A stretch of DNA of 64,000 nt from Natrinema salinisoli (lineage in GTDB: Archaea; Halobacteriota; Halobacteria; Halobacteriales; Natrialbaceae), in assembly GCF_020405205.1 (NCBI RefSeq), contig NZ_CP084469.1:620001-684000 (forward strand), written 5' to 3'. Position numbers and translations under genes: made by a program. A model generated the notes under the pieces. It was not told where the DNA came from. It worked only from the letters and a program-made list of their open reading frames with translations, and did no database searches. This document shows, in pieces, positions 37,579 through 41,742 of the stretch. Positions within the stretch are counted from its first letter, which is position 1, and each line of letters opens with the position of its first letter.

Positions 37579-38334
37579 TCAGTTTTCGGCAGGCCGCTCC
37601 GTTGCTCGTCGAAGGAGACCGAGCAGCGTGTTCGCCTCCCGTTCCGTGAGGTCGGCCCGTCCGTACACCCGTCGGAGCATCCGCATCGTCTTGTCGCGTT
37701 TCTCCTCGGGGTGATTGATCTCCTCGAGTAGTGCCGCCCACTGGTCGTAGAGCCGGTCGATAGTCGGCTCGGGGGCCCGGACGCGCTCGAGGTCGGGGAG
37801 CTGCGTCTCCTCGAGGGCGAGCGACCGGAGTTCGTAGAGCGTGATCGTGGCGGCCTGCCCGAGATTGAGCACGGGGTAGTCGGCGTTCGCCGGGATCGAG
37901 CAGATTTCGTCGATCCGGGCGAGTTCCTCGTTCGTCAGGCCGACGCGTTCGCGACCGAAGACGAGGGCGGTCGGTGCCTCGACGGTGGGCAATCGGTCGG
38001 CCAACTCGGCGGGCGTCGAATAGGGGAACCGCATGTGACTCCGGTCGTCCTCGTTGGTCACTGCCGTACACCCGATCGTGTGATAGGTCTCGACGAGGTG
38101 ATCGAAACTGATCTCCTCGGCGTTCGGGAGCACGTCCTCTCGAGCGTGTCCCGCGAAGCCGTACGCTTCGCCATCGGGGTCGAGGTCTGGCGGATCGACG
38201 AGCAGGAGCTCCTCGAAGCCGAAGTTCTTCATCGCTCGAGCGATGGTGCCGACGTTGCCGGGTGATTGAGCGTCGACGACGGCGACGGCCGGGACGGTCC
38301 GACCCGCATCCGTATCGGACGTATCGTCGCTCAT
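37579..38334 (-). CDS. trmJ: tRNA (Nm32) methyltransferase TrmJ, SPOUT family
   Basis: A 251-residue SPOUT methyltransferase. It begins with VAVVDAQSPGNVGTIARAMKNFGFEELLLVDPP, and the knot region is ALVFGRERVGLTNEELARIDEICSIPANADYPVLNLGQAATITLYEL, both typical of TrmJ. The C-terminal helical part (LYDQWAALLEEINHPEEKRDKTMRMLRRVYGRADLTEREANTLLGLLRR) also matches. TrmJ 2'-O-methylates tRNA position 32. Its gene is the last on this strand before the replication origin region. Confidence 0.92.
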   Translation of the reverse strand: MSDDTSDTDAGRTVPAVAVVDAQSPGNVGTIARAMKNFGFEELLLVDPPDLDPDGEAYGFAGHAREDVLPNAEEISFDHLVETYHTIGCTAVTNEDDRSHMRFPYSTPAELADRLPTVEAPTALVFGRERVGLTNEELARIDEICSIPANADYPVLNLGQAATITLYELRSLALEETQLPDLERVRAPEPTIDRLYDQWAALLEEINHPEEKRDKTMRMLRRVYGRADLTEREANTLLGLLRRATERPAEN

Positions 38335-38534
38335 CGGTTCGTCGATCGGCGGAACGTACGGTGAGCGATGCTCGGTACTAGTTCTCTCACAGTAGCTTCG
38401 ACAAGAGCGACTCTCGACGGAGACGCTGTCACGGTGGCCACATTCATACCCGGAGTTCCGAACGGGAAGACAAAAAGGAGCGCGTTGTCCGCTCGTTCGA
38501 TGGCTCGGTGGAGAAACCGGAGATAGTGACAGTA

Positions 38535-38640
38535 GCTGGTTTTCTTTTCGCCTTTCTTCTCCTTCTTTCTCCTTCTTCGAATAAGAACTAGCTAGAACTA
38601 GCCTTCTACAATCTAGAACAGTAATTTAGAATCAGATGCG
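38535..38640. other. Pyrimidine- and AT-rich tract, candidate DNA unwinding element
   Basis: A long C/T-rich stretch (about 38535-38580, several CTTTCTTCTCC-like units) is followed by AT-rich DNA with repeats of CTAGAAC/TAGAACT (38586-38625). It is the least GC-rich DNA in the origin region and lies to one side of the long inverted repeats, where melting would be expected. Assignment is by composition and position only. Confidence 0.55.
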
Positions 38641-38729
38641 ATCCGGCCTGAGATCAGCGTGAGCGACGTATCGTGGCGCGGTCCGTTTCTTGTATTCGCC
38701 GATCATGTCGGCGAACAGTGAGAGAGGGA

Positions 38730-38751
38730 CACACCCCCCTCGCGTTTGTAA
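38730..38751 (-). repeat. Origin recognition box, left arm of a perfect inverted repeat
   Basis: The minus strand reads TTACAAACGCGAG followed by GGGGGTGTG, a 22-bp sequence repeated exactly on the plus strand at 38876-38897. The run of G after the core matches the G-string found in haloarchaeal ORBs. Orc1/Cdc6 is the expected binder. Confidence 0.8.
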
Positions 38752-38875
38752 GCGTATCTAGGTGTGGGAGTCCTGTGTTGGAACACACCAGTGCCGCGGA
38801 TGTAAATTCTCCTGGAAAAAGGGCTCTAATTCTGGATATCCCGAGATAATTCTCTCCGGCCCCACACTATTGCCG

Positions 38876-38897
38876 TTACAAACGCGAGGGGGGTGTG
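38876..38897 (+). repeat. Origin recognition box, right arm of a perfect inverted repeat
   Basis: The plus strand reads TTACAAACGCGAG then GGGGGTGTG, exactly the reverse complement of 38730-38751. The arms are 124 bp apart, pointing outward with their G runs. Perfect identity over 22 bp is strong evidence of a functional site. Confidence 0.8.
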
Positions 38898-39046
38898 CCC
38901 CCCGTGGTGAATCATCGAACTGTTCGTTCGGTCTCCGTCCGAGTCGATTTCGGGCCGCAATGTCGGTATCCCGTTCGCGACCGAAAAGCGGGATTCGCTC
39001 TCAGAGATCGGCTATAACGCCCCTTATACGGTAGAAAAACTAATCT

Positions 39047-39068
39047 TTACATACGCGATGGGGGTGTC
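39047..39068 (+). repeat. Third, near-matching origin recognition box
   Basis: TTACATACGCGAT followed by GGGGGTGTC differs at three of 22 positions from the long repeats and has the same orientation as the right arm. It lies 172 bp upstream of the orc1/cdc6 start. A still weaker match, TTACATCCGCGAT, is at 39177-39189, overlapping the promoter region, which could link initiator binding to autoregulation. Confidence 0.65.
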
Positions 39069-39239
39069 CGCCCCGATTTCCGGTATCGAACGCTATTAGA
39101 AGCGCGAGGGCGGCGACCCGTAAGTCGCTCAGCCATGCGGCCGAGAATACCCGTTCGAGTCCCTCAACCGGACGGTTTACATCCGCGATCGATCCCCACA
39201 TCTTTATTTCAATCCAGTTGAAAGGGACGGCACATCGCA

Positions 39240-40469
39240 ATGTCCGCCAACGACGATCGAGACCCGCTCTTTCGGTACGACGATCCGGTCTTCGCCGACG
39301 AGCGCCTGCTCGAGATCACGCACCTGCCCGGCCCGGATCGGATCGTCGGTCGCGACGAGCAGATGCAACGGGTTGCGGACGCCCTGAACCCGGCGATCTT
39401 CGGGAGCGAACCCAACCATCTGTTCATCTTCGGCAAGACCGGCACTGGCAAATCGCTCATTTCGCGGTCGGTCACCCAGCGAGTGATCACCGAGGCCGAA
39501 CACGACGACATCACGGTCCGGTACGCGTTCATCGACTGCGGCGAGCAAAATACGGAGGCGTCCATCGTCAAGACGATCGCCCAGATCGTCAACGAACCGG
39601 ACGCGAGCGGCGTCACCGTTCCCGACCGCGGCCTCGGCACCGGCGACTACTACAAGCGCCTCTGGCAGGCCATCGATCACTGTACCGACGTTACCATCGT
39701 CATCCTCGACGAGATCGACATGCTCGAGGACGACGAGGTCCTCCGAAAGCTCTCTCGAGCAGGCGAGAACCGACGCATCTCCGACTCGAGTATCGGCATC
39801 ATCGGCATCTCGAACAAGATCGACTTCCCGGATCACCTCTCCGAACGCGTCAAGTCGAGCCTCTCGCGGGACGAACTGGTCTTCTCGCCCTACGACGCCA
39901 ACCAGCTCGTCGAGATCCTCGAGAAACGCCGCGACGCGTTTCACGACGGCGTCCTCTCCGACGACGTCATTCCCCTGACGGCCGCCCTCGCGGCGCAGGA
40001 ACACGGCGACGCCCGCAAGGCCATCGACATCCTCCGGAACGCGGGTCGCATCGCGAAGAAGCGAAACGAAACGCGAGTCACCGCGGATCACGTCCGCGAC
40101 GCCAAGGAGAAGACCGAGGCCGACCGCTTCAACGAGTTGATCGAGGGCTCTCCCCAGCAGGCGAAAGCGATCCTCTACTCGCTCACCCTGCTGACCGAAA
40201 ACAGTTCGGAGAAGGAGTTCCCGACGAAGATCATCTACAACCAGTACAAGGAGGTTGCCCGGCGGCTCGACTTCGACGTCCTCTCCGAGCGCCGCGTGCA
40301 GGAAATACTTCAGGAACAGAACTTCCTCAACGTCATCCAGTCCGAGCGCGAAGGCCGCGGCCGCGGTCGCGGCGCACACGCCAAACACCGCCTCCTCGAG
40401 AACCCCTCGATCGTCAAGAAGGTGCTCCTGCGGGACTCGCGACTGGCCGTGCTCGAGGACGAGGAGTAA
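39240..40469 (+). CDS. orc1/cdc6: Orc1/Cdc6 replication initiator
   Basis: A 409-residue AAA+ protein. Walker A is GKTGTGKS (65-72), Walker B is VTIVILDEIDML (about 155-166), sensor 1 IGIIGISNK, and arginine/sensor-2 region HGDARKAIDILRNAGRIA. A winged-helix domain (about 300-400) carries the DNA-binding part, with QEQNFLNVIQSEREGRGRGRGAHAKHRLLENP. It binds ORBs to open the origin and load MCM. A TATA-like ATCTTTATTTC lies at 39200-39210, giving a short leader. It is adjacent to its probable origin. Confidence 0.96.
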   Translation: MSANDDRDPLFRYDDPVFADERLLEITHLPGPDRIVGRDEQMQRVADALNPAIFGSEPNHLFIFGKTGTGKSLISRSVTQRVITEAEHDDITVRYAFIDCGEQNTEASIVKTIAQIVNEPDASGVTVPDRGLGTGDYYKRLWQAIDHCTDVTIVILDEIDMLEDDEVLRKLSRAGENRRISDSSIGIIGISNKIDFPDHLSERVKSSLSRDELVFSPYDANQLVEILEKRRDAFHDGVLSDDVIPLTAALAAQEHGDARKAIDILRNAGRIAKKRNETRVTADHVRDAKEKTEADRFNELIEGSPQQAKAILYSLTLLTENSSEKEFPTKIIYNQYKEVARRLDFDVLSERRVQEILQEQNFLNVIQSEREGRGRGRGAHAKHRLLENPSIVKKVLLRDSRLAVLEDEE

Positions 40470-40548: not shown

Positions 40549-41742
40549 ATGAACACCGTCGATGCCGCCGGACTGGGAATCGGGGACGACCACCCGCCTC
40601 GAATCATGGGCGTGTTGAACGTTAGCGAAGAGTCCCCCTACGACCCGAGCGTCTTCGACGACCCCGGCGAGGCGGCCCGCTACGTCGACGAGGACCTGAT
40701 CGGTGAGGGCGCCGATATCGTGGACATCGGCCTCGAGTCGGCGAACAAGCGCTTCGACGTGCTCTCGGCCGAGGAGGAACTCGAGCGGCTTCACGTCGCG
40801 CTCGAAACCATCGAGAGCGTCTCCGGAGACGCGATCTTCTCGATCGAGACGCGCTACGCGGACGTGGCCGACGAGGCGCTTTCGCAGGGGTTCGACATGG
40901 TCAACGACATCTGCGGGTTCGCCGATCCGGAGATGCCCGCGGTCTGTGAGGACCACGATGTCGCGGTCGCGAAGATGGCGAGTCCGCCGGATATCGAACG
41001 GCCGGGTGCGGTCGAGGAGACGGACTGGGCGGCGCGGAAGTCACCGGAGTGGGCGTCGCAGGCAGACTACGTCGATCAGGTCTACGAGGCACTGAAACAG
41101 AACGGGCTGACGGACAAGACGATTATCGACCCCGCGTTCGGCGGGTGGAGCGAGGCGCAAACGGTCGCGGACGACCGCGAGACCTTCCGCCGACTTCGGG
41201 AGTTCCGGGCCCTCGATCGGCCGATGCTGGTTTCGATCAACCGGAAGAACTTCCTCGGGGAGATCGCGGACCGCGAGACCGAGGAGCGACTCCCGGTCAG
41301 CCTCGCGGCGACCTCGATGGCCGTCGAGCGCGGCGCACACGTGATCCGAACACACGACGTTGCCGAAACCAGGGACGCAGCACTGATCGGAAAGGCCTTC
41401 ACCGAGCGGTCGAGCGCTACCGCCGAGGGAGTCACGGTTTCGCAACTGGACGTTCGCTCGACTCGCGAGTTTCGGGCCCAGCTCAGAGAGCGTGGGATCG
41501 ATCCCGCGTTCGCCGACGACTGGCAGACCCAACTCCTCGAGGTCGAGGGTCTCGACGCCGACGCCAGCGAGCGATTGATTTCGATCGCGACCGAGCACGG
41601 CGTGGACGTCCAACGCGCGTCTGACGTGCGACTTATTCTCATGGGATCGACGGGATCCGTTTCCGATGTATCAGGACGCCTGAGTGAAGAAAACGGACGT
41701 CTCGGTCGTCTCGGGGAGAAGCTGTCAACACTGCTGCGTTAA
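40549..41742 (+). CDS. Divergent dihydropteroate-synthase-family protein
   Basis: A 397-residue pterin-binding TIM-barrel protein. Family blocks are visible: RIMGVLNVSEESPYDPSVF (19-24 on), ADIVDIGLESANKRF (D59 on), MVNDICGFADPEMP, and IIDPAFGG. Canonical DHPS has TPDSFSDGG and the DIGGESTRPG loop; here these read SEESPYDPS and DIGLESANKR, so pABA-binding residues are altered. A C-terminal extension (about 300-397) has no match I recognise. mptE lies downstream on the same strand, which supports a pterin role, but true DHPS activity is uncertain. The ATG at 40549 fits the barrel start. Confidence 0.75.
   Translation: MNTVDAAGLGIGDDHPPRIMGVLNVSEESPYDPSVFDDPGEAARYVDEDLIGEGADIVDIGLESANKRFDVLSAEEELERLHVALETIESVSGDAIFSIETRYADVADEALSQGFDMVNDICGFADPEMPAVCEDHDVAVAKMASPPDIERPGAVEETDWAARKSPEWASQADYVDQVYEALKQNGLTDKTIIDPAFGGWSEAQTVADDRETFRRLREFRALDRPMLVSINRKNFLGEIADRETEERLPVSLAATSMAVERGAHVIRTHDVAETRDAALIGKAFTERSSATAEGVTVSQLDVRSTREFRAQLRERGIDPAFADDWQTQLLEVEGLDADASERLISIATEHGVDVQRASDVRLILMGSTGSVSDVSGRLSEENGRLGRLGEKLSTLLR

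Follow-up and report, generated by a model that had tools for sequence, protein, structure and literature searches.

A probable secondary replication origin with a dedicated Orc1/Cdc6 initiator and promoter-locked boxes in Natrinema salinisoli

Introduction

The closest described systems are the haloarchaeal origins that adjoin orc/cdc6 genes. According to the available text of a survey of 15 haloarchaea, origins were predicted beside 102 of 154 orc/cdc6 genes, and box sequences go with initiator families (PMC3528665). The accessible portion of a genetic study of Haloarcula hispanica reports a dependence of each origin on the neighboring cdc6 gene and an essential role of G-strings at oriC1 (PMC3936714), and that of a study of the related Natrinema J7 reports transformants from six of seven cloned origin regions (PMC5350488).

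Here we describe a locus in a window (the whole stretch of DNA analysed, 64,000 nucleotides; bases 620001–684000 of the 4.19-Mb chromosome, in a genome of 4.70 Mb in three contigs) that we interpret as a probable secondary origin of chromosomal replication, served by an Orc1/Cdc6 dedicated to it. Judging from comparisons of sequence, we put the probability of this reading at roughly 0.8. Coordinates are those of the window unless another contig or chromosome position is named.

The locus and its initiator gene

The intergenic region (38335–39239) is flanked by a methyltransferase gene and directly adjoins an initiator gene:

37579–38334, minus strand: gene for a TrmJ-type RNA methyltransferase (trmJ)
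39240–40469, plus strand: orc1/cdc6 gene, 409 aa, with AAA+, Cdc6 lid and C-terminal winged-helix domains

The gene product has the AAA+ and winged-helix domains of a haloarchaeal origin initiator, matches the profiles TIGR02928 (413 bits), PF22703 and PF09079, and by sequence has 2v1u and 2qby as its closest solved structures; it is 97–100% identical to proteins of many Natrinema species. A dihydropteroate synthase gene comes after orc1/cdc6. An RNA element was considered and rejected, with no Rfam match in the window.

Organization of the boxes

A box consensus, TTACANNCGCGANGGNGGTGT, was built from orthologous loci, and the mismatch counts of boxes 1–5 refer to it. The features of the intergenic region are as follows:

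38510–38640: pyrimidine/AT-rich tract left of box 1 (GC 35–45% over 38510–38659)
38731–38751, minus strand: box 1, ORB with G-string forming the left arm of the perfect inverted repeat (0 mismatches)
38785–38805, minus strand: box 1b, second inverted box within the pair (3 mismatches; conserved in the 46-sequence spacer alignment)
38806–38870: AT-rich spacer from box 1b to box 2, candidate unwinding element (local GC 47–48%)
38876–38896, plus strand: box 2, ORB with G-string forming the right arm of the perfect inverted repeat (0 mismatches)
39047–39067, plus strand: box 3, ORB with G-string (0 mismatches), found in most orthologous loci at a varying distance from the gene
39096–39116, plus strand: box 4, degenerate direct box (3 mismatches), at −144 from the orc start
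39177–39188, plus strand: core of box 5, lacking a G-string, shortly upstream of the orc TATA element
39203–39207, plus strand: TATA-like element TTTAT of the orc1/cdc6 promoter, at a fixed distance from box 5 and the ATG

The initial annotation had recognized a perfect 22-bp inverted repeat (38730–38751 and 38876–38897), a third near copy (39047–39068) and a weaker fourth (39177–39189), and all of these are present. The full arms of the repeat (38726–38751 and 38876–38901) are 26 nt long and 96% complementary, 22 bp of them perfectly so, and box 2 begins 145 bp after the start of box 1. Six boxes are counted in total, with boxes 1b and 4 as the two additions to the earlier four. At its full length (39177–39197, plus strand) box 5 has six mismatches to the consensus with the core intact; three further six-mismatch matches in the same kilobase were left out of the count, and one more match with at most three mismatches lies elsewhere in the window. 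We note that the bases separating the box 5 core from the TATA element (39189–39199) include a short C-run in many loci, as if there were a G-string on the opposite strand.

Boxes 1 and 2 supply the inverted G-string ORBs (at least two repeats) by which haloarchaeal origins are recognized, and the DNA between them includes an AT-rich element of modest enrichment and putative unwinding role: averaged over 46 loci, bins 70–110 bp past the start of box 1 are 55–59% AT, compared with 38–39% just before. The pyrimidine/AT tract noted earlier beside the boxes is real, with a mean AT content of 50–55% at 110–250 bp left of box 1 in the same 46 loci, and is situated outside the inverted pair. The inverted G-string ORBs, the AT-rich DNA, the adjacent orc1/cdc6 gene and their conservation support the original proposal that the anatomy fits a haloarchaeal origin. 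From this layout we infer that Orc1/Cdc6 would bind the inverted boxes 1, 1b and 2, and also box 3, its winged helix reading the TTACANNCGCGA core and its AAA+ side touching the G-string, and that the bound initiator would open the AT-rich spacer and load MCM.

A search with TTACAAACGCGAGGGG at up to three mismatches gives four matches in the window, all within 38736–39111, where 0.40 are expected from shuffles and none of 100 shuffles reaches four. Across the whole 4.70-Mb genome, allowing up to two mismatches to TTACAWACGCGANGGGG, there are three boxes here and one two-mismatch match at 2.253 Mb; the reversed TTACAWACGCGANGGGG pattern, searched as a control in the same 4.70 Mb, has no matches.

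Conservation across orthologous loci

A scan of genome contigs identified 72 loci with an Orc match. Fifty-eight of these (L030–L087), at about 65% Orc identity or more, are the orthologous loci, and the 14 more distant ones (L088–L101) were excluded as orthologs; five of the latter (L088–L092, about 45% Orc identity) were scanned for the box and none was found. Upstream regions were compared in a set of 55 (54 orthologous loci and the window, with L082–L085 excluded), promoter distances and the spacer alignment in sets of 46 (45 core Natrialbaceae loci and the window), and the TATA/box 5 spacing in a set of 59 (all 58 orthologous loci and the window). Because many of the species are close relatives, all of these locus counts are counts of non-independent events.

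The 55 upstream regions contain 243 boxes at up to three mismatches, whereas five first-order Markov resamplings gave 0, 0, 0, 0 and 1. Spacing of the inward-facing pair is 143–148 bp in 48 of the 55 loci, the remaining values being 137 (two loci), 166 (one), 167 (two), 197 (one) and 426 (one). Alignment of the pair region from 46 sequences shows that boxes 1, 1b and 2 are conserved and that the other spacer bases are mostly unconserved. AT-richness is also a recurring feature, in a spot between boxes 1b and 2 and over a broader stretch to the left of box 1. L082 is the sole case among the 58 orthologous loci in which no box was found.

The trmJ neighbor is present in 44 of the 58 orthologous loci, and 13 of the 14 loci in which it was not found still have at least one box beside orc (16-base pattern, up to four mismatches); the box–orc unit therefore stays joined when its surroundings change. 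In several relatives a chromosome-sized contig starts next to this orc gene (L207, G071:C1; L208, G128:C1; L209, G112:C1; also L042), as if its numbering had been set here and not at oriC1. In-frame stops reported for some Orc orthologs are probably the natural protein end, as most of the matches concerned extend to residue 407.

Boxes locked to the orc promoter

The box 5 core starts at −63 in 44 of 46 loci and at −62 in the other two, and box 4 is at −143 to −145 in 40 of the 46; the distances of boxes 1–3 to the gene vary among loci. Among the 59 loci the box 5 core is 25–26 nt upstream of TTTAT in 55 and 35 nt upstream in one, the combination of core and TTTAT being absent from L082, L083 and L084, and this locking reaches Halorussus loci in which Orc is only about 74% identical. 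The fixed distance between the box 5 core and the orc TATA element suggests autoregulation, with initiator at the promoter-locked boxes 4 and 5 probably controlling its own transcription. A fuller but tentative model, to which we give a little less than even odds, divides the boxes into a floating module (1, 1b, 2 and 3) and a promoter-locked module (4 and 5): excess initiator at box 5 would block TBP/TFB and silence its own gene in a DnaA-like archaeal loop, and the lack of a G-string would set the affinity such that the origin is filled before box 5.

In the same genome, ORB-like sequences are also found close to the orc start at oriC1 and at two other paralogs, so promoter-proximal boxes may be common. 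The H. hispanica study refers to the autoregulation of dnaA in bacteria and puts forward titration of the initiator, and its available text reports no promoter box comparable to box 5 (PMC3936714). Within the accessible text of the literature searched, no description of a promoter-locked ORB core was found, and a piece of the box searched in the main texts of papers gave no match. The promoter-locked core offers a direct test case for archaeal initiator autoregulation.

A different explanation is that the boxes are an operator array that regulates or titrates Orc only and that no replication starts here. It would account for the locking of boxes 4 and 5 to the orc promoter, and has a parallel in the ORB-rich, probably titrating region that the available text describes downstream of cdc6E in H. 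hispanica (PMC3936714). Yet boxes 1–3 float relative to the promoter while the inverted pair is kept at 143–148 bp around AT-rich DNA, which is the layout of an origin and not of an operator, and we consider an operator without an origin improbable.

The initiator and its box as a probable specific pair

Among 392 genomes of the order, the exact box TTACAWMCGCGANGGNGGTGT is present in 109 and an orthologous Orc (E ≤ 1e-150) in 117, the latter being absent from 275. Both occur in 108 genomes, Orc only in nine, the box only in one (G280) and neither in 274 (Fisher p 1e-84, a value that ignores the relatedness of the genomes); the reversed TTACAWMCGCGANGGNGGTGT control had none among the matches listed for genomes of the order. 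All nine Orc-only genomes (G017, G041, G066, G084, G092, G202, G204, G207 and G225) have more divergent initiators, at 65–75% identity, and in the 96 genomes of the window's own family there are 76 with both, 20 with neither and no discordant case. The initial annotation had suggested that initiator and box co-evolved as a specific pair; their near-perfect co-occurrence across the 392 genomes strongly supports such a pairing, and more than 100 genomes that keep or lose initiator and site together are a data set for Orc1/Cdc6 origin discrimination within one cell. The specific-pair principle itself is already published for haloarchaea, as the available text of PMC3528665 makes clear, has genetic backing from H. 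hispanica (PMC3936714), and is not new.

In three genomes, at L204:4875 (G280:C1:2534874), L205:5223 (G102:C1:883222) and L206:4779 (G217:C3:76778), the box is present as an exact copy, yet the 9.5–10.5 kb examined around it contained no relative of the window Orc. These copies may be orphan or titrating sites; the one in L204 is followed after 106 bp by a second near copy and has a transposase-like ORF alongside. A viral source of the box was rejected: the two viral contigs with the exact box (L202 and L203) gave no match to the window Orc, and the box matches, which in L202 fall in or beside an ORF of a tailed-phage-like structural region, were judged to be chance. A plasmid source was likewise rejected, a blastn search with the origin having matched two of 72,556 plasmid records, both haloarchaeal megaplasmids with an orthologous orc.

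Paralogous loci, oriC1 and possible use of the origin

Eight further Orc genes are located elsewhere in the genome. Five have clearly different boxes, and no comparable box family was seen at the three remaining loci. The five paralog box types are:

C3: ACGACGGAAACGTGGGGTG
1.573 Mb: TTCACCGGAAACACGGTGTG
C2: AACACATCGATAGAGGGGTGT
2.481 Mb: TTCACTTGAATCGGTGGTGTG
3.075 Mb: CCAGTTGAAACGAAGGGGTGGGG, beside another Orc1 (C1 3.073–3.075 Mb)

The core of the window box is unlike all five. We take the CCAGTTGAAACGAAGGGGTGGGG box at 3.075 Mb to be the canonical archaeal oriC1 ORB type, and the earlier remark that the core differs from the box of the main chromosomal origin holds against this canonical-type oriC1 box of the same genome. 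The Orc1 beside the canonical-type boxes (L021:956–2719, minus strand; G000:C1 about 3.0735–3.0752 Mb) has 587 residues, more than 100 of them in an acidic low-complexity insertion within the AAA+ region; an intein, considered for its split match, was rejected because the extra piece is this acidic low-complexity stretch.

From 100 stretches of 20 kb, the change in skew across each orc locus was calculated and given a percentile relative to the chromosome as a whole. For GC, AT and purine skew at distances of 100–420 kb, oriC1 ranks at the 87th–99th percentile, a strong reversal. The rank of the window locus is only modest at 100 kb (79th–93rd percentile) and is background at 170–420 kb (23rd–77th). 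Skew thus does not mark the window locus as a dominant origin, and is weak evidence either way in genomes with several origins and many rearrangements.

That the window locus is oriC1 itself, the main conserved origin, but with an unusual box, might be suggested by long contigs of relatives, G071, G112 and G128 at least, that start beside the orthologous orc, as if numbered from there. The window locus does not have the canonical ORB beside the universally conserved Orc1 that defines oriC1, however, and it is the other Orc1, at C1 3.073–3.075 Mb, that has both a canonical-looking box and the strong skew reversal. Moreover, 20 of the 96 genomes in the window's own family lack the window initiator, whereas oriC1 is conserved in all haloarchaea examined, according to the available text of PMC3528665. 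We regard this identification as highly improbable.

Because the window locus has no skew reversal beyond 100 kb, a minor or dormant role is possible. In its strongest form the locus would be a dormant or very weak origin that keeps its parts and fires upon loss of oriC1, and perhaps of other Orc loci, which normally initiate. The missing long-range reversal, unlike at oriC1, is consistent with this, as is a dormant origin reported for Haloferax mediterranei, which is activated once the primary origins are lost (PMC4595724, available text). Tight conservation of the boxes, their spacing and the promoter elements implies continuing selection, though, and rearrangement and competing origins can each wipe out a skew signal; we hold dormancy to be conceivable but on balance doubtful, and favor a secondary origin with its own initiator that may be used in vivo.

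Comparison with known systems

The window locus resembles oriC1 (cdc6A/Orc1) in having inverted G-string ORBs around AT-rich DNA beside orc, and differs in its box core, its patchier distribution and its lack of a strong skew reversal; its Orc is of a lineage distinct from that of the oriC1 Orc, with 42% identity over residues 112–407. With the orc/cdc6-adjacent origins described in the available text of PMC3528665 it shares inverted G-string ORBs in an intergenic region beside orc/cdc6, a box specific to an initiator family, and the occurrence of several such origins per genome. As in the accessible account of H. hispanica oriC2-cdc6E (PMC3936714), there is a secondary chromosomal origin with a dedicated initiator and multiple ORBs; that system has a cluster of 11 ORBs downstream of cdc6E, for which the window orc has no room because only 79 bp separate its stop from the start codon at 40549, and the comparison is one of layout. 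Since these two studies, in the text available, describe origins that are initiator-adjacent and initiator-specific, the window locus is of a known kind and a good example of it, and its new detail is the promoter-locked core.
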